Virus record (IMG/VR): IMGVR_UViG_3300049810_000294
Span: 1 to 20,840 of that record
Strand: one strand, 5' to 3'
Origin: a virus
DNA: 20,840 nt
In this document: one piece after another, positions 996 to 19,173 of the stretch
Layout: each line of letters opens with the position of its first letter
Numbering within the stretch: position 1 is the stretch's first letter
The notes under the pieces: generated by a model
Seen by the model: the letters and a program-made list of their open reading frames with translations, nothing else
The model's database searches: none
What the model was told of the DNA's origin: nothing
Made by a program: the position numbers and the translations under genes

Positions 996-1385
996 TTAAT
1001 TATTACCTTGTTTAACTTGTTTCAGTCTTTCAACTTCAGCCTTTTTTAATTTAACCATCATCTTCTTTGCAATCTTTTGAATCACCATATGTTTTTTTGA
1101 TGTAATCCTGTTATCTACCTCTATCCTAGCAGCAGGGGGTAACTCTGCATATTTTTTTGCATCCAATCCAGCAAACTTCTTTAGAACTAACATCTTTGCT
1201 TTCTTTAATGCTCTCTTGTGCAACATATCTGGTGTTGCAAGTTTATTTTTCCTTCGTGCAACCTTTGCTTTAAAAGCAGAAGACTTAGTAAGCTTCTTCA
1301 TACGCAACGCCATTTTTCTTCTCTGTTGCATAGAGACCGCTTTCTTCTCGTTCAATTCGAGCATTAATTCTTCAAACTTCTTCAT
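996..1385 (-). CDS. Very basic conserved phage protein, possible capsid-internal protein
   Basis: I do not recognise a functional family. The 129-residue product is extremely rich in Lys and Arg (for example QQRRKMALRMKKLTKS and KRALKKAKMLVLKK) and predicted helical throughout, consistent with binding DNA or RNA. Similar small basic proteins are recurrent hypothetical genes in marine T4-like phages (from memory). I chose the ATG at 1385 because it makes an ATGA overlap with the upstream stop; a TTG nine bases earlier (1394) could extend it by three residues. The N-terminus MKKFEELMLELNE carries L-N-E, the (L/I)-x-E form cut by the T4 gp21 prohead protease. With its basic charge and late-block position, a T4 internal-protein-like role is plausible but inferred. 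Confidence 0.72.
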   Translation of the reverse strand: MKKFEELMLELNEKKAVSMQQRRKMALRMKKLTKSSAFKAKVARRKNKLATPDMLHKRALKKAKMLVLKKFAGLDAKKYAELPPAARIEVDNRITSKKHMVIQKIAKKMMVKLKKAEVERLKQVKQGNN

Positions 1386-2623
1386 CTGTCCCAAGCCTTC
1401 ACTGCTGTAAAATTGTTAAAACTAAATTCCATTCTATCTACTAACTTAACTGCACCACCACTGACTCTATCAATGGCAACATACCCTTCGGCATCCGTTA
1501 CTTTGAAACCATTCTTTGTTCTAATGAATGTTCCTATTTGCTTAACAGTATTTAGTTTCTTTACAACACCCATTTTTGCCTCTACGATATGATTTTGAAA
1601 GGCAATTATTGCGTCTAAGTTCTTAATATGTTTCTTTAATTCACGAATAACTTCTTTTTTTGTATTCTCAATTTCTGCCTTTTTGGCAGGAGTTTTGATA
1701 GAATCTATTCTTTTATTATATGTTCCCTCTACCCATGTCAAATATCCCTTTGCATGAGCAGTTGTATTAGTAATCTTTTGTCCTTCTCTAACCTTGCTAT
1801 TATTATAGGTTTTAAGGGACGCACCAGCAAGTTGATTAACAAAAGTGTTATTTTGTATATCCAAGAACTTCTTCAATAAAGAAGAGTTAATCTTTCTAAA
1901 TGTCTTGCCTGCGTTAGATAAATGTTTTGTAACTTCTTCTGTTTCTTTATCATTCATTGTTGCAGAACCAGATAAGTCTTTATAGGATGCATCATCCATC
2001 CAAATAGAAGATGTTGGTTTCATCTTAGATGTGTCTGCACCGAAAGATGCTTTCATATCTTGTAAAGCACTTCCTTTATATGTGGTATGCCAGACAACAC
2101 CAATCTTTGATTTGTTCATTTGTTTACCAAGGTCACTATTCACTGGAACTGCATATACAATTGTATTTGGTTGGAAAGTGTAATAAGACTCCCCATCAAT
2201 TGTTTCAGTTTCCAAGTCTGTGAACATAAGGTCACCCTGTAATACTCCAGTAATTCCCAACTTAGGAAACTCTGCAAATGCAACCTTAAACTTAGCATTC
2301 AAGTCACCAGAAGTATCTGCATCAATATCTGCATTTGACTTATAAAGTTTTGGTGTTGCATTAAATACTGATTTCTTTGCAACAAAAAACTTACCATCAT
2401 CTGGGTCAATACCAGCAAAGATTGCTGGAGCACCATCCCACTTAACAGTCATATTGATAGAAGAACGAGAGGAACCAGCAAGCATATCTCTTAGGGAACG
2501 AACAAAATTAATAGATGCTCTACCACCGTCAATTCCGTAATTTAGAATCTCATCTTCGATATGTTCAAGGTGTAGGTTTTTACCACCCTTATCTTCTTTA
2601 AGAAATGAATTAAAATTTAACAT
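1382..2623 (-). CDS. KxDG nucleotidyltransferase / ligase-like phage protein
   Basis: The 413-residue protein has KWDGAPAI at 61-68. This matches motif I (K-x-D-G) of the covalent nucleotidyltransferases (ATP-dependent DNA and RNA ligases, capping enzymes), where the Lys becomes adenylylated. A following GVLQGDLMF segment (126-134) and IGVVWHTTYKG (174-184) sit where the later ligase motifs would be, though they match only loosely. Close relatives are common in marine T4-like phages as an uncharacterised family (I believe DUF6267, from memory). Substrate is unknown: RNA or DNA end joining or an AMP-transfer reaction would fit. It starts one base into the upstream stop (TAATG) and overlaps the downstream start (ATGA), so translation is coupled. 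Its N-terminus MLNFNSFLKE ends in L-K-E, resembling a capsid-targeting peptide. Confidence 0.75.
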   Translation of the reverse strand: MLNFNSFLKEDKGGKNLHLEHIEDEILNYGIDGGRASINFVRSLRDMLAGSSRSSINMTVKWDGAPAIFAGIDPDDGKFFVAKKSVFNATPKLYKSNADIDADTSGDLNAKFKVAFAEFPKLGITGVLQGDLMFTDLETETIDGESYYTFQPNTIVYAVPVNSDLGKQMNKSKIGVVWHTTYKGSALQDMKASFGADTSKMKPTSSIWMDDASYKDLSGSATMNDKETEEVTKHLSNAGKTFRKINSSLLKKFLDIQNNTFVNQLAGASLKTYNNSKVREGQKITNTTAHAKGYLTWVEGTYNKRIDSIKTPAKKAEIENTKKEVIRELKKHIKNLDAIIAFQNHIVEAKMGVVKKLNTVKQIGTFIRTKNGFKVTDAEGYVAIDRVSGGAVKLVDRMEFSFNNFTAVKAWDR

Positions 2624-7472: not shown

Positions 7473-7967
7473 TTAAATGTCTCCTTCTTCTCTGTTTTCA
7501 GAACGAAACGATTCGAATCCATCTGGATATCGTGTTTCAAGTTTTTCTGTGTTCATATAAATGATATCTTCGAATGAAGTATCCAGAGCAATACAGGCCT
7601 GTGCAACATACCAAAGTATATCACCCAATTCTCTCTTAGCATGATATATAGTATGTTCGTCCATAGGTTTCCCTTGGAACACACACTTCTTTACAATCTC
7701 TGTAAATTCACCACCTTCTGCACAAATGCCAAGTGCGGCAGTAATCATGCGTTCTGGTGAAATACCAGAGGACTCTTCAATAATATCTAGTGAAGTATTA
7801 AAAGCTTCAGAATCCTTAGATTCATCACTTGTCACCGCATCTACAAATCTAGTATAATCTAGAAGTAGTCTTTCATCAGTATCGCTCATTTTGGGTTCTC
7901 CGTTAATCATATTAATCATTTGGTCTAATATACCAGTTTTATCAGTGTTTGTCAATAGATTATTCAT
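7473..7967 (-). CDS. MazG-like nucleoside triphosphate pyrophosphohydrolase
   Basis: The 164-residue protein belongs to the all-alpha NTP pyrophosphatase (MazG/dUTPase-2) superfamily, which hydrolyses NTPs or dNTPs to the monophosphate. The metal-binding pattern is AEGGEFTE (E84, E87, E90) and, one helix later, ELGDILWY (E113, D116), with LETRYPDGF near the end. Start choice is open. The ATG at 7967 makes an ATGA overlap with the CmoA-like gene but has only a distant GGAG. An internal ATG at 7889 (MSDTDER, 138 residues) has GGAG at 7901-7898 eight bases upstream and matches the homologue N-termini I recall. Cleaning the nucleotide pool or lowering (p)ppGpp are proposed roles in marine phages; next to a DNA-modification pair it may serve the dNTP pool. 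Confidence 0.85.
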   Translation of the reverse strand: MNNLLTNTDKTGILDQMINMINGEPKMSDTDERLLLDYTRFVDAVTSDESKDSEAFNTSLDIIEESSGISPERMITAALGICAEGGEFTEIVKKCVFQGKPMDEHTIYHAKRELGDILWYVAQACIALDTSFEDIIYMNTEKLETRYPDGFESFRSENREEGDI

Positions 7968-8671
7968 TTAATAACAATCGCTCCTACGAACATGTGATTT
8001 CTCCAAAAGGGTTGAATCTTAATAGGGTCAAACCCTGCCTCTATAAGGTTGTTTACAATCTCACTCCAAGTATTCGGTTTCATCATATGTCTTAGAGTTC
8101 TTTCCTTATCCATAATATCCTCTGTGTCAAAATTCTTTCTCTTATAATCATAATAATTAAAAGTAATCATTTCTTGAACACGAGGGTCTTCTGCAACAGT
8201 TTTCTCTGCAAAAATAAATGCACCACCAGTATTGAGTCCTTTATATATTTTCTCCAACACTTCCTTACGATGTCTTGGTGGCATGAATTGTAATGTAAAG
8301 ATAGAAGTAATAAAGGAACAGTTTGTAAAATTACAATCTCTAATATCACCCTTTATAAACTCCAAATCAACCCAAGGGTTGTTTGCTGTAATAGCATCTT
8401 CACGTTTATCTAAATTATCATAAAATCCTTCTGCAAGTTCAACCCCAATATAATGTGCCTCTGCACAATGGTCTTGGTTTTCTAAAATGAGCTTTTCAGT
8501 GACTTTACCAGTAGAACATCCAAGGTCAACAACACTAGTTCCATTCTCTACAAAATAACGAGAGTATGAAACAATATCATCTACTAGGTTACTATACCCA
8601 CGAATAGAATGTTCTATGTGGTCATCAAAACCTTCATCCCTGTGGGCAAAGGTAAAATCATATTCAGCCAT
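7964..8671 (-). CDS. cmoA: CmoA-like carboxy-S-adenosyl-L-methionine synthase
   Basis: CmoA converts SAM and prephenate to carboxy-SAM (CxSAM), normally for CmoB-dependent tRNA U34 modification. The 235-residue product (E. coli CmoA 247) aligns along its length: FDDHIEHSIRGYSNLV with the CmoA FPDMIQRSVPGYSNII, VVDLGCSTG (47-55) with the SAM-binding YDLGCSLG, KGDIRDCNF with EGDIRDIAI, FTLQFMPP (125-132) with FTLQFLEP, KIYKGLNTGGA with KIYQGLNPGGA, and YDYKR (174-178) with HDFKR. Counting on without gaps from DYKR, R191 falls on E. coli Arg199, which holds the CxSAM carboxylate. A plain SAM methyltransferase is the alternative but would not share these segments. AAGGAG lies 7 bases before the ATG. 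It overlaps the DNA methyltransferase by 8 bases, and no CmoB is present, so the CxSAM probably feeds the methyltransferase. Confidence 0.83.
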   Translation of the reverse strand: MAEYDFTFAHRDEGFDDHIEHSIRGYSNLVDDIVSYSRYFVENGTSVVDLGCSTGKVTEKLILENQDHCAEAHYIGVELAEGFYDNLDKREDAITANNPWVDLEFIKGDIRDCNFTNCSFITSIFTLQFMPPRHRKEVLEKIYKGLNTGGAFIFAEKTVAEDPRVQEMITFNYYDYKRKNFDTEDIMDKERTLRHMMKPNTWSEIVNNLIEAGFDPIKIQPFWRNHMFVGAIVIK

Positions 8672-9821
8672 TATTTAACTCCTTGTAAGGTTTTAATACT
8701 TTTTCATAAACAGCATCAGCGATTGATTTCATCATTAGTGGTGGAACCATTCTACCAATTCGTTCTGCTTGTTGAACCCATTTACCAGTAAGAACAAAAT
8801 CGTCTGGAAGGGATTGAATTCTTTTCAATTCCCCAATAGTTAGTTTACGAGATTCTATCCAATGACATGCACCAGCAGTTGTCTCACCAGAACCCATTGC
8901 AGTGAGTGTAGGTGCAGGCACATATTGTGAAGCCCGTTTAATATTAAAGTGATGTCCCTTCACATGGAAGTCATCACCATTCAATACTTTTTCTGGGTCA
9001 GTAGGCATTTTAGAAACCGTATCTCTCCAGTATGCAGTTCCCAAAAACTTTTCAGTTAAATACTTAACTTCTTCTTCATCATACTCCAACCCTTCAAGTG
9101 CATTCTTCAAAGGAATAGTTTCTCTACTTTCCTCTGGATACACAGTTCCAATTGTCATAAAGTTTAATCCTACTGCCTCTGATACATCTTCACGAACTGC
9201 AATAAAAATTACACGAGTTCGTGTTTGTGATACACCAAAATAACGAGAATCCAAAACCTTTACCACAACATCATAACCAATCTGTTCGAATGTGTTCTGA
9301 ATCTTGTTTAAATATTCTTTTGCTTCACCAACAGTCAATCCCTTTACATTCTCTGCAATAATAACTTTAGGTTTAATCTCTTCTGCCACACGCAAGAACT
9401 CAAAAAATAAATCTTCAATGTTCTCTACAACTTTATCATCTGAATATTTCTTAGTCTTTCCCCAACCATCAGAATGTTTACCATCTTTGTTTCTACACAA
9501 TGCACCAGCAACTGAGAATGCAGAACATGGGGGTGAACCATCCAACAAATCTAACTCACCAGATTTCAATCCAGTAAGTTCTAAAAAATCTTTACCTGTT
9601 AGGTCTTTAATATCTCCAGGCAAGATTGGTGTATTCGGATAATTCTCTGCATAAGTGTTTCTTGCTTCCTCAACAAATTCATTTACTGCGAGTATCTTAC
9701 CACCAGCAAGTCTATATCCTGTAGAAGAACCACCACCACCAGCAAACGTAGAAATTACATTAAACTTAGATTGTGTTTCTGCTTCAATAACATCTTTTAA
9801 TTTGTATGGTGTGTATTTCAT
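8664..9821 (-). CDS. DNA (cytosine-C5) methyltransferase with Arg in motif X; candidate carboxymethyltransferase
   Basis: The 385-residue protein shows C5-cytosine methyltransferase motifs in order: SAM-binding FAGGGGSSTG (26-35), motif IV GSPPCSAFS with nucleophile C99, motif VI ENV (157-159), motif VIII QTRTR (199-203), a short target-recognition region, then PTLTAMG and SLPDDF. Motif X reads RIGRMVPPLMMKSIADAV, with R357 replacing the nearly invariant Asn of GN-x-VPP. That Asn corresponds to N374 of M.MpeI, where a basic residue allows use of carboxy-SAM and yields 5-carboxymethylcytosine. The ATG at 9821 forms an ATGA overlap with the polymerase stop and has GGAGG ten bases upstream; a longer frame from 9875 lies inside the polymerase gene and lacks support. 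It overlaps the CmoA-like gene by 8 bases. Family membership is clear; cofactor choice is inferred. Small target-recognition region suggests short or relaxed target specificity. Confidence 0.92.
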   Translation of the reverse strand: MKYTPYKLKDVIEAETQSKFNVISTFAGGGGSSTGYRLAGGKILAVNEFVEEARNTYAENYPNTPILPGDIKDLTGKDFLELTGLKSGELDLLDGSPPCSAFSVAGALCRNKDGKHSDGWGKTKKYSDDKVVENIEDLFFEFLRVAEEIKPKVIIAENVKGLTVGEAKEYLNKIQNTFEQIGYDVVVKVLDSRYFGVSQTRTRVIFIAVREDVSEAVGLNFMTIGTVYPEESRETIPLKNALEGLEYDEEEVKYLTEKFLGTAYWRDTVSKMPTDPEKVLNGDDFHVKGHHFNIKRASQYVPAPTLTAMGSGETTAGACHWIESRKLTIGELKRIQSLPDDFVLTGKWVQQAERIGRMVPPLMMKSIADAVYEKVLKPYKELNNG

Positions 9822-12346
9822 CCGAAAAAATCCTCCAGTGTTGTTTGTGTCCCATAACTCCTGTCGATAGTCCAACCAATTTGATTCATAATAAAAGTGA
9901 GAGGTTCTACAAAAGCCTTCTCGAATTGTTTATCATAGTCTAAATACTTGTGAATGTCAAGTTCTTTTGGTAACTTTGTAATAAAAGAGATAACATTCGA
10001 TTGCATAGGGTTAGGTGTTCTCATATTAAGGAACTTGATTTTGTCACCCTCATTAATGAGAGGGTATTTGTTAGTCAACCGTTTCTGATTAGAGAAGTGG
10101 TTGTAAAGGATTGCACCCTTGACATGCATTGGTGTTCCAGATTGGAAGATGTTAGAACCACTACTCCACTTCTTAATACCATTTACAGAACGAGGGAATG
10201 CAATCTCCTCTGGAGGCAGGGCCATAAACTCTTTGCGAAACTCTTGGATAAAGTCGTTTACATCCTTTTCTGTTCCAGACATAATAACCTTTAGTGCATC
10301 CTTAATCTTCTCACGACATGGGGCAGGGGTTGAAGACTTGACAGCCTCAATACCCATAATCTTTAGTTTAGGTTCACCATAACGAACCCCCTCAACATCC
10401 CACGCATTGAGAATATATCTTTTCTTTGCCGTCCAGATACCTTTGTCTGCGATAACTTCACGTTTCATCTGCATCTTTTGGGCATAGGCATTCATAGTTT
10501 GAGCAAGAACTTGATAAGACTTATCAATAAAAGGTTCCACCTTCTGTGAAGCCACTGCGTCCAAAAAGTCAACGACTTTCTGGGTATACTCGTCTTCCGA
10601 TAAGTCAGTTCGATTTTTAAACGACTCACTAACCAACCTGTCAAAAGTGATATAAACCGAATCTGTGTCAGACGCAATGATGTAATCATGCGATTCTGTG
10701 TTAAGTATTTTATTAAGGTATTCATTCAATCTCCTTTCAATCCAACGGATAGAGAGTTGGCCAGAGGTGGTAATCCCTTCGGCAATCCTCAAGTCATAAT
10801 AACGAAACCACTCATTACCAATCGCACCATAAGCAGAGTTCAATGAAATCTTACGAGCCATCTGGATGTTAGTGAACTTCGAAACATCTTTTAGATATTT
10901 AGCATCCTTTGTATCTTCATATTTTTGTTTGGCGTCCAACATCTTCTTTTTGTAAATGGTTCTATCATTATACATCTCTTGCATCATCTCAGGCAAGAAC
11001 CCAAGTTCATGTTTTGAGAACACAGCACCGTTTGGTGTTGCGGTAAAATCTGTTGGAAGTTTGGACATATCCATCTCACCATCAATAATCTTGTCGATTG
11101 CATCAGAACCCAAGTTGAGGTTTTTTTCAAACAGGGTCTCTGGAGAGATGTTGTATTGCATAATAAGGTGTGGATATAGAGAGTTCAAGTCAAAAGAAAG
11201 AACCCACTTGTGTTGTCCAACTTGTGGTTCCTTTACAAATGCACCGACATACTTCTCACCCTTACTCTTGTTTGACTTCTTCTGAGGGATGACAATCTTT
11301 TTACTACGCAAGTGGTTGTAGATAAGAACGTCCCAATACTTAACAGAAGTAAAAGCATCAGACATATTCACCTTGGCCTCATAGGTCATAGTCAACAGCA
11401 AGTCGATTAGTTTCATCTTGTCATCAAGTCTATCAACTAGTTCAACGTCTGTGATGTTGTAGTCAATAAAGGACTGATAGTCTTCTGTATACCACTGTCG
11501 AAAAGTCTCATAAGGATTCTCATCCTTACGTTCACCCAACTCAACAAAGGCAATGTGGTCAAGACGATATGACTCTTGATTTTGGTAAGTAAACTTCTTA
11601 TATAATTGTAGATAGTCAAGGTCAGTAACACCAAGGATGTCATAAGTCTGGTCTTTACGTCCATAACCAGAATTCACCCAACGAGAGTTTACGATACCCC
11701 AAGGAGAAAGTCTACGAACAGACTCTTCACCAAGAACCTTTTGAATACGGTTACAGATGTATGGAATATCAAAGAATTCAGTGTTCCAACCAGTTACAAC
11801 GTCTGGGTGGTCTGCATCCCACCAACCAAGGAAACGAGCAAGCAACTCTCGTTCATTAGGACAATGGATGTATTTTACATCATCTCTGCTTGTTGTATAA
11901 TCATGCAATCCCCAAACAATGATTTCACCAGTAGAGTGGTCTTTGATAGTAATAGACAACATAGGTTCCTCAGCCTTGTCTGCATAAGGAAATCCATTTT
12001 CACACTCAACCTCAATATCAATAGTAATTTTTTTGATAAGGTCAGAGTCGAATTGTATTTGTCGAGGATACTTTTCAGAAAGATAGGTATAAGGAAACTG
12101 TGCCATGCCATAGACAAGCCACGGTTGACTTTCGTATTGTTCTACAAAAGCCTTTGCCTCCTTGATAGAAAGAAACTTCATAGGATTGACATTCTTGCCC
12201 TCCAAGGTCTTCCAACCAGTTTCTTTCTTCACAGGGACATATAATGTCGGTTCGTATTTTACTCGTTTAGTGTATCGTTCCCCTTTGGAAACACCACGAA
12301 CCAACAAGTCGTTACCCCACTGGGCAACATGTGTATAAAAATCCAT
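9818..12346 (-). CDS. 43: Family B DNA polymerase, T4 gp43
   Basis: This is the replicative polymerase with 3'-5' proofreading. The 842-residue product (T4 gp43 898) has Exo I TIDIEVE (D110, E112), Exo II NTEFFDIP (188-195) and Exo III YNITDVELVD (296-305), then polymerase motif A SFDLNSLYP (D386), motif B KISLNSAYGAIG (499-510) and motif C SDTDSVY (D560, D562). The C-terminus TTLEDFFG resembles the sliding-clamp-binding peptide that tethers gp43 to gp45. All catalytic residues are present and no inteins or splits are seen. The ATG at 12346 is preceded by AAGGTGG and by a perfect sigma70-type promoter, so it is the first gene of an operon running to gene 41. RegA, encoded upstream, represses gp43 translation in relatives. 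Confidence 0.97.
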   Translation of the reverse strand: MDFYTHVAQWGNDLLVRGVSKGERYTKRVKYEPTLYVPVKKETGWKTLEGKNVNPMKFLSIKEAKAFVEQYESQPWLVYGMAQFPYTYLSEKYPRQIQFDSDLIKKITIDIEVECENGFPYADKAEEPMLSITIKDHSTGEIIVWGLHDYTTSRDDVKYIHCPNERELLARFLGWWDADHPDVVTGWNTEFFDIPYICNRIQKVLGEESVRRLSPWGIVNSRWVNSGYGRKDQTYDILGVTDLDYLQLYKKFTYQNQESYRLDHIAFVELGERKDENPYETFRQWYTEDYQSFIDYNITDVELVDRLDDKMKLIDLLLTMTYEAKVNMSDAFTSVKYWDVLIYNHLRSKKIVIPQKKSNKSKGEKYVGAFVKEPQVGQHKWVLSFDLNSLYPHLIMQYNISPETLFEKNLNLGSDAIDKIIDGEMDMSKLPTDFTATPNGAVFSKHELGFLPEMMQEMYNDRTIYKKKMLDAKQKYEDTKDAKYLKDVSKFTNIQMARKISLNSAYGAIGNEWFRYYDLRIAEGITTSGQLSIRWIERRLNEYLNKILNTESHDYIIASDTDSVYITFDRLVSESFKNRTDLSEDEYTQKVVDFLDAVASQKVEPFIDKSYQVLAQTMNAYAQKMQMKREVIADKGIWTAKKRYILNAWDVEGVRYGEPKLKIMGIEAVKSSTPAPCREKIKDALKVIMSGTEKDVNDFIQEFRKEFMALPPEEIAFPRSVNGIKKWSSGSNIFQSGTPMHVKGAILYNHFSNQKRLTNKYPLINEGDKIKFLNMRTPNPMQSNVISFITKLPKELDIHKYLDYDKQFEKAFVEPLTFIMNQIGWTIDRSYGTQTTLEDFFG
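9832..9836 (-). promoter_or_regulatory. Ribosome binding site deciding the methyltransferase start
   Basis: GGAGG on the minus strand, ten bases before the ATG at 9821 and inside the last codons of the polymerase gene. It is one of the best Shine-Dalgarno matches in the window and favours the 9821 start over the upstream in-frame start at 9875. Confidence 0.7.
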
Positions 12347-12373: not shown

Positions 12374-12402
12374 ATTATATAGCAAGTAGGGGGTATTGTC
12401 AA
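12374..12402 (-). promoter_or_regulatory. Consensus sigma70-type promoter upstream of gene 43
   Basis: On the minus strand: TTGACA at 12402-12397, a 17-base spacer, and TATAAT at 12379-12374, a perfect match to the host vegetative promoter at both boxes and spacing. Transcription should start near 12367, about 20 bases before the polymerase start codon. This indicates early, host-polymerase-driven expression of the 43-to-41 operon including the DNA-modification pair. Confidence 0.85.
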
Positions 12403-12620
12403 GAGAAAAGTGGTAATTGTTCCTCAGATGAGAAGTGTTTATCAATCATATCAATAATATCTTGAGAGTGTGCAATCTTTGCCAGTTCACCTTCTACTGC
12501 TTCTGCAATATCGGGATGTTCCCCAATACCAGCAGGATTCTTTAGGTAGATACCAACATTTGCTTTATGTAGTGCAATTTTACCTTCATTGTGTTTTTTG
12601 ATTGCTTCGAGTAGTGTCAT
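12399..12620 (-). CDS. Small conserved phage protein of unknown function
   Basis: The 73-residue product is predicted all-helical with a central IYLKNPAGIGEHPDIAEAVEGEL segment. Small proteins with a similar PxGIGEHPD core occur in marine T4-like phages as hypothetical genes (from memory), with no known function. The ATG at 12620 (MTLLEAIKKHNEGK) has AAAGGG seven bases upstream; ATGs at 12626 and 12644 would lengthen it by two or eight residues. It overlaps the ATP-grasp gene by 35 bases. The next promoter's -35 box overlaps its last codons, so it ends the regA-side operon. Confidence 0.65.
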   Translation of the reverse strand: MTLLEAIKKHNEGKIALHKANVGIYLKNPAGIGEHPDIAEAVEGELAKIAHSQDIIDMIDKHFSSEEQLPLFS

Positions 12621-13701
12621 TATCATTCCCTTTCCAATGTTCACGATTCATAAAAGTGATAAGAATCTCTTTTGTTATACTTCGTTTCTTATCTTTAATT
12701 AGAGGCTTTGATGCGGCACTATTAAATACTGCCTCAATCCCCATAAGGCCAGGTGTTGAATTAACCTCAATCATATAAGGTTTTTCCTTTTCCCTGTTCT
12801 TTGCTGGAATAAAGTCTACTCCAACCACTTGTCCATCAACAGCCTCTGCGGCTCTTAATGCTTCAGTTCTTTCTAATTCTGTCAATTCATGAACCTCTGG
12901 TTCAGAACCTTGTGATACGTTGCTTCTGAAATCCTGTTCAATAACTGGTCTTTTTATTGCACCAATCACTTCTCCAGCAACAATAATCACTCTTACATCA
13001 TAATCAGTTTTTATATACTCTTGTAAAATAATATCTACATACTGGTCTTCTCTATATAACAGTTGTATTACACTGTGTAGAGATTTAAGACTTTCAATCC
13101 ACATAACCCCAATACCTCTAGAGCCAGTAGATGTTTTTAAAATCATTGGAAACTTATTACCTAATTTTTCTGCGGCTGCATCTGCACCTTCGGCATGACG
13201 AACCAATACAGTTTTAGGTGTATTAAAATCATTCGTATGAAAAACAACTTGGTTATACCACTTATCACTACAAATATCATGACATACTGTAGAATTAATA
13301 ACAGTGTAACCTTTTTCTTCTAAATTCTTTACAGTTACCCACCAAGAACGGTTACCAGTTTTTACTGTTGAACCCATCCCTCTAGCCATAATAAGTGTGT
13401 CTTTGGGATTAATCTTGAAGGGTTTGTCGTATTTTGCATCCGTCTTCATTGTAGGCAAATCTGCACTACCATCTTCTCCAACTGGAAAAGAATACACATT
13501 AAAACCAACATCATCTGTTGGTTCCATATACATTCCACTAAACTCACCCAAGTGACATGAGATACCCATAGACTTCGCAACCTTGCGAATCATTGGCCCA
13601 GTTTCGTTTGGGTCATGAGGGTCATCATGAGACAGCACCAATAATTTATATGGTTTGTCTTTAGGTTCCTCAGTAATAAATTTAGAAAATGTTTGTGCCA
13701 A
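12586..13701 (-). CDS. RimK-like ATP-grasp ligase
   Basis: The protein is an ATP-grasp carboxylate-amine ligase of the RimK type; RimK adds glutamates to the C-terminus of ribosomal protein S6. Visible elements (numbering from the TTG at 13701, 371 residues): MILKTSTGSRGIGV with the ATP-binding K189, ILQEYIKTDYDVRVIIVAGEV, VVGVDFI with D296, and MIEVNSTPG with metal-binding E312 and N314. Family role is forming a peptide or amide bond using ATP; the phage target could be a host ribosomal or a phage structural protein, which the sequence does not show. No ATG is available near the 5' end: TTG at 13701, one base past the regA stop and with GAGAG upstream, is preferred to TTG at 13725. The N-terminus TFSKFITEE resembles a capsid-targeting peptide with I-T-E. 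It overlaps the downstream orphan. Confidence 0.83.
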   Translation of the reverse strand: MAQTFSKFITEEPKDKPYKLLVLSHDDPHDPNETGPMIRKVAKSMGISCHLGEFSGMYMEPTDDVGFNVYSFPVGEDGSADLPTMKTDAKYDKPFKINPKDTLIMARGMGSTVKTGNRSWWVTVKNLEEKGYTVINSTVCHDICSDKWYNQVVFHTNDFNTPKTVLVRHAEGADAAAEKLGNKFPMILKTSTGSRGIGVMWIESLKSLHSVIQLLYREDQYVDIILQEYIKTDYDVRVIIVAGEVIGAIKRPVIEQDFRSNVSQGSEPEVHELTELERTEALRAAEAVDGQVVGVDFIPAKNREKEKPYMIEVNSTPGLMGIEAVFNSAASKPLIKDKKRSITKEILITFMNREHWKGNDNDTTRSNQKTQ

Positions 13702-13702
13702 C

Positions 13703-14107
13703 TTAGATTTCTCTCTTCTTACCAATGTTATATTTAGTTTCTAACTCCCACTCATCTTTCTCTTTGAAAGATATTACTTTGATTTGTGAGAGTGGAGCCT
13801 TTGGCTCTGCACTACCAATAATTTCAACAAGTCCCCAATCTCCTAAAAGATTAGCAATCGAATTTCTACGAGAGATATCATTCTCATTGATATTAGTTTC
13901 TTTACCGTCAAGAGCGAACAACTCTTTAAAGTGAACGATAAAATATCTACCTTGTTTGTGTAGGATATGACAGGACTGATATAGTTTCTTTTCTTTGCGA
14001 GAGGCCACCCCAATTCTGGATAGTGTCTCCCTCACCTTTAAGAAATCGTCTGGTTCTTTTAACTTGATTTCTAGCATCTTCTCTGGATGCCACAATATTT
14101 CATTCAT
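13703..14107 (-). CDS. regA: Translational repressor RegA
   Basis: RegA binds the start regions of early phage mRNAs, including gene 44, 45 and its own, and blocks ribosome binding. The core from MLEIKLKEPDDFLKV (residue 11 on) matches T4 RegA MIEITLKKPEDFLKV, with GVASRKEKKLYQSCHILHK, YFIVHFKELFALDGK, LLGDWGLVEI and VISFKEKDEWEL in register. The ATG at 14107 has AAGGTGG about six bases upstream and an ATGA overlap with gene 62, but gives ten extra residues; an ATG at 14077 matches the T4 start but has only an abutting GAGAAG. I keep 14107 with that doubt. Position between 62 and the polymerase operon matches the T4 order. Confidence 0.95.
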   Translation of the reverse strand: MNEILWHPEKMLEIKLKEPDDFLKVRETLSRIGVASRKEKKLYQSCHILHKQGRYFIVHFKELFALDGKETNINENDISRRNSIANLLGDWGLVEIIGSAEPKAPLSQIKVISFKEKDEWELETKYNIGKKREI

Positions 14108-19144: not shown

Positions 19145-19173
19145 ATTATATGTTATCAGAGCATGTTTGTCAA
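19145..19173 (-). promoter_or_regulatory. Consensus sigma70-type promoter upstream of the orphan at 19113
   Basis: TTGACA at 19173-19168, 17-base spacer and TATAAT at 19150-19145 on the minus strand: a perfect match. It lies immediately after the intrinsic terminator of the gp46/deformylase operon. Confidence 0.85.

Follow-up and report, generated by a model that had tools for sequence, protein, structure and literature searches.

The closest described system is that of Synechococcus phage S-B43, in which CmoA and CmoX together produce 5-carboxymethylcytosine (5cxmC; Yang et al., Nat Commun, December 2025; PMC12783734). The S-B43 CmoA (SpCmoA) makes carboxy-SAM (Cx-SAM) from SAM and prephenate; wild-type SpCmoX takes Cx-SAM, refuses SAM, and makes 5cxmC in DNA at the motif GC, its Arg350 contacting the carboxymethyl group, and the product resists HhaI (PMC12783734). 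A further enzyme, CmoY, ligates glycine onto 5cxmC, and in native S-B43 DNA the glycine amide was found and no free 5cxmC (PMC12783734). A partial parallel, as cited in that paper, is the engineered bacterial enzyme M.MpeI N374K, whose motif X Asn is replaced by a basic residue, the type of residue also found in the locus described here; this permits Cx-SAM use, but the specificity is for CG, against GC in SpCmoX (PMC12783734).

We analysed a 20,840-base contig of a marine phage (the window), which is a fragment of a genome, and the gene absences given below hold within that scope. We consider it very probable, by analogy with S-B43, that the window carries a CmoA-CmoX cassette for DNA hypermodification, yielding 5cxmC in the phage's own DNA. 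The initial annotation had proposed this chemistry while knowing of no natural example; the S-B43 system is one, so the mechanism is not new: what was proposed is probably correct, and it is already published. Yang et al. drew up a list of 5,615 CmoX candidates, using IMG/VR among other sources (PMC12783734), and the window record, a virus record like those searched, may already be among them. The window adds sequence support for natural 5cxmC being widespread in marine T4-like phages. New here are a Glu/Arg pattern in phage CmoA, the changes of the adjacent ligase on the CmoX tree, and the Melnitz-type cassette that fills the same slot; what keeps the locus of interest is the absent ligase, the change in the CmoA active site, and cassette exchange at the slot after the polymerase (pol).

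The CmoX and CmoA genes in the polymerase operon

Both genes are present where the initial annotation had placed them (Table 1), and their ORFs share 8 bases (8664-8671). Transcription runs in the order pol-CmoX-CmoA-MazG-uvsX, which we also found in other contigs. The pol stop contains the CmoX start (9818-9821, a 4-base overlap) and the MazG start contains the CmoA end (7964-7967), bearing out the proposed placement within the polymerase operon. The perfect promoter just upstream of pol was likewise confirmed as a consensus match (12402-12374); its "early" class had been inferred in the initial annotation, and our scan gives the consensus match only. Two perfect TTGACA-17-TATAAT sites occur in the window (0.01 expected from shuffles), the second at 19145-19173 (reverse strand). 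A search for the CmoB family found no member in the window, in agreement with the earlier reading, and neither tRNA genes nor Rfam RNAs were found in it; CmoB or another tRNA client within the window was rejected, none being present. The window also encodes a DUF6267 protein (1382-2623, reverse strand; E 3.4e-106), which relatives without CmoX carry too.

Table 1. Coordinates of the cassette, its neighbours and its key codons in the window.
Feature	Position	Strand	Basis
MazG-like pyrophosphohydrolase, next operon gene, neighbour outside the pathway	7473..7967	-	PF03819, E 2.5e-07
CmoA homologue, carboxy-SAM synthase type, 235 aa	7964..8671	-	TIGR00740; SpCmoA identity; predicted fold
Codon AGA, CmoA Arg194, one helical turn past the E. 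coli Arg199 position	8090..8092	-	alignment
CmoX homologue, DNA cytosine C5-carboxymethyltransferase type, 385 aa	8664..9821	-	ATG at 9821; PF00145; SpCmoX identity
Codon AGA, CmoX Arg357, motif X, predicted carboxymethyl-binding residue	8751..8753	-	alignment; codon read from sequence
Codon TGT, CmoX Cys99, predicted catalytic (HhaI Cys81, SpCmoX Cys98)	9525..9527	-	alignment
gp43-type DNA polymerase, heading the operon	9818..12346	-	ORF; position kept in relatives
Perfect sigma-70-type promoter-like site, TTGACA-N17-TATAAT	12374..12402	-	upstream of pol
RimK-like ATP-grasp protein, adjoining regA, upstream of pol	12586..13725	-	best PDB matches RimK/LysX

Compared with S-B43, the window has in common both enzymes (59% identity for CmoA, 63% for CmoX), the motif X Arg, the Cx-SAM contacts, and the lack of an adjacent CmoB; it differs in that no CmoY adjoins the pair, whose genes overlap pol and MazG directly. 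The Synechococcus phage S-CRM01 (HQ615693), a complete genome, also has adjacent CmoA and CmoX genes, but in the order CmoA-CmoX before regA, as opposed to CmoX-CmoA after pol in the window.

Conserved and altered residues in the two enzymes

The window methyltransferase has the C5-cytosine DNA methyltransferase fold (PF00145, E 1.3e-53), and in the PDB it matches 8yf3 (E 1.2e-154) far better than any other entry; 8yf3 is the crystal structure of the S-B43 enzyme, SpCmoX (PMC12783734). The Arg at motif X seen in the initial annotation is real: Arg357 aligns with HhaI Asn304 and SpCmoX Arg350. The SPPC catalytic motif is present with Cys99, and every SpCmoX residue published as contacting Cx-SAM or as catalytic (F25, E47, F48, D69, C98, and R350) is kept in the window (F26, E48, F49, D70, C99, and R357). 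Identity to SpCmoX is 63% overall and 72% in the N-terminal core, falling to just 44% in the target-recognition region. Thus the same chemistry is to be expected, whereas the precise DNA motif is less certain, since a target-recognition region this divergent may read a different motif. By analogy with its S-B43 homologue, the window CmoX would use Cx-SAM rather than SAM and make 5cxmC.

For the window CmoA, the best NCBIfam model is TIGR00740 CmoA (E 2e-36), at 125.9 bits, below the equivalog cut-off of 193.3. By sequence it matches just two proteins in the PDB, E. coli CmoA and H. influenzae YecO. Its predicted structure (pLDDT 90.9, pTM 0.88; the structure prediction rows left out the S-B43 and S-CRM01 sequences) has CmoA structures as its top fold matches (TM 0.82-0.88), E. 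coli CmoA first. The fold and most of the SAM-binding residues are shared with E. coli CmoA, which serves the tRNA cmo5U34 pathway; in contrast to it, however, the window enzyme likely has a DNA enzyme as client, not CmoB, and lacks Arg199, which in E. coli CmoA forms a salt bridge to the carboxylate (PMC3663124). That column holds Glu in 138 of 138 aligned phage CmoAs, including the active SpCmoA (Glu190 in the window), and the column four residues on (E. coli Glu203) holds a near-invariant Arg (137 of 138). Glu190 and Arg194 lie in one predicted helix (183-196). We infer from the alignment that Arg194 may take over the role of Arg199 in phage CmoA, provided that the register is right: it hinges on the placement of a one-residue gap, and the other register would set Arg199 against Arg191, a residue that is not invariant. 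Yang et al. do not mention Arg199 in their main text (PMC12783734). Both the sub-threshold score and the missing Arg199 count against the assignment of the window CmoA, but the active S-B43 CmoA lacks Arg199 at the aligned position too. Synthesis of Cx-SAM from SAM and prephenate by the window enzyme would carry over from SpCmoA, to which it is 59% identical.

Because the two enzymes are so close to the tested S-B43 pair (59-63%), the following mechanism is supported, with its chemistry, motif, and protective role predicted for this phage. The phage CmoA would convert SAM and host prephenate to Cx-SAM; Cys99 of CmoX would form an adduct at C6 of a cytosine in double-stranded DNA, and the carboxymethyl group, held by Arg357, would pass to C5, giving 5cxmC, most likely within a short GC-containing motif. 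Since the cassette is encoded among replication genes, new DNA would be modified while it is made, and the purpose would most likely be resistance to host nucleases.

Final base, ligases, and alternative readings

On the CmoX tree (128 rows; a quick build with some long branches), 72 loci have CmoY, two have an AsnB-like ligase, 28 have neither, and 26 are unscored, so that CmoY lies beside the pair in 72 of the 102 scored loci. Many relatives carry CmoY, placed either between pol and CmoX or downstream of CmoA. The adjacent-ligase label requires at least 12 changes on the tree, vs at least 20 in 100 shuffles. The window forms a supported ligase-less group with loci L002 and L004, which L003, a locus with CmoY between pol and CmoX, joins at weaker support (86). 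No Asn-synthetase-like ligase (CmoY) was found in the 20.8 kb fragment, in which pol, CmoX, CmoA, and MazG abut; in L002 and L004, as in the window, the slot is closed, with pol, CmoX, and CmoA abutting. The initial annotation had allowed for 5cxmC or a further-modified form: the latter has a counterpart in relatives, where CmoY often modifies the base, but not in the fragment itself, where CmoY is not visible.

It is exceedingly improbable that the pair is an ordinary 5mC DNA methyltransferase beside an unrelated, tRNA-modifying CmoA. The classical CmoA client is CmoB, a tRNA enzyme, and a host CmoB could use phage-made Cx-SAM; however, the window has no CmoB, the CmoA and CmoX genes overlap and stay paired in many contigs, and wild-type SpCmoX accepts Cx-SAM and not SAM (PMC12783734). 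Motif X Arg also tracks CmoA, as a co-occurrence search of the kind that the initial annotation suggested indicates: in the loci that we fetched, 135 C5-methyltransferases carrying a motif X Arg lie within 2.5 kb of a CmoA gene, which is never missing where such an enzyme has room on both sides, although most Arg loci were fetched with CmoX or CmoA queries, which biases the association; all seven Leu enzymes of the same family with enough flank lack CmoA. A more serious contender, though short of probable, is that 5cxmC is an intermediate only, amidated with glycine or another amine by a CmoY-type ligase whose gene lies beyond the 20.8 kb fragment. The state of native S-B43 DNA, the frequency of CmoY or an AsnB-like ligase beside the pair, and the CmoY of neighbouring L003 point that way; the closed slot in the window, L002, and L004 points the other way, as does S-CRM01, in whose complete genome CmoA and CmoX are accompanied by no PF00733 protein, no SpCmoY match, and no Asn-synthetase-type ligase anywhere. 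So either some phages end with bare 5cxmC, or there are ligases of other kinds; the S-CRM01 genome suggests the former, a bare, negatively charged base. That the window lineage in particular finishes its 5cxmC without CmoY, whether as the bare base or through an unrecognised class of ligase, is a reading that we hold tentatively.

ATP-grasp enzymes of the RimK and LysX type couple carboxylates to amines, and the RimK-like protein is the sole visible ligase-like candidate in the window, a weak one. That it is the phage's amide ligase, standing in for CmoY, fits this type of chemistry and its presence in the window, but its distribution makes the idea very unlikely: the gene occurs in 17 CmoX loci but also in 13 Leu-methyltransferase loci and in six with neither, and is missing in 11 CmoX loci in which its slot is visible. 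The complete genomes of Melnitz and Mosig have the RimK-like gene without CmoA, S-CRM01 has CmoA-CmoX without the RimK-like gene, and L013 has it alongside CmoY. As a dedicated ligase it was rejected on this co-occurrence, and we regard it as an independent gene of the phage group, not specific to CmoA-CmoX. A RimK-like ATP-grasp gene next to regA was also seen in several marine T4-like phages. Returning to the CmoA-CmoX reading, two questions are raised: whether the bare acid is the final base in some phages, and how the active site of phage CmoA functions when the classical Arg199 is lacking.

Other genes in the slot after the polymerase

Methylophage Melnitz (MZ577097) shares with the window the C5-methyltransferase family and its slot downstream of pol, but has Leu rather than Arg at motif X, no CmoA in its complete genome, and a Tet_JBP oxygenase as partner. 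This oxygenase gene (L084:5208-6194), annotated as hypothetical, directly follows and is overlapped by the methyltransferase gene, and matches Tet_JBP with E 3.6e-11; the two probably constitute an oxidised-5mC route. The C5-methyltransferase and Tet_JBP pair lies directly after pol in several contigs, and Tet_JBP following a Melnitz-type C5-methyltransferase in the CmoX-CmoA slot was seen in L092, L095, L096, L157, L220, L223, L230, and L233. The slot after the polymerase may be a general exchange site for cytosine-modification cassettes.

Several other genes were observed near this position. In L219, L221, L232, L235, L248, and others, which lack the C5-methyltransferase, a protein of ~370 aa with a weak DruA match directly follows pol, often together with a cytidylyltransferase-like gene and a possible glycosyltransferase gene. 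A protein of ~427 aa with a sub-threshold match to N6/N4 DNA methylases follows pol in four loci (L222:12136, L226:4440, L242:2306, and L257:9482). In addition, a protein of ~355-361 aa is encoded 3′ of CmoA in L006, L012, L023, L025, and L165; a look-alike of it (L226:7674) matches IMP dehydrogenase/GMP reductase.
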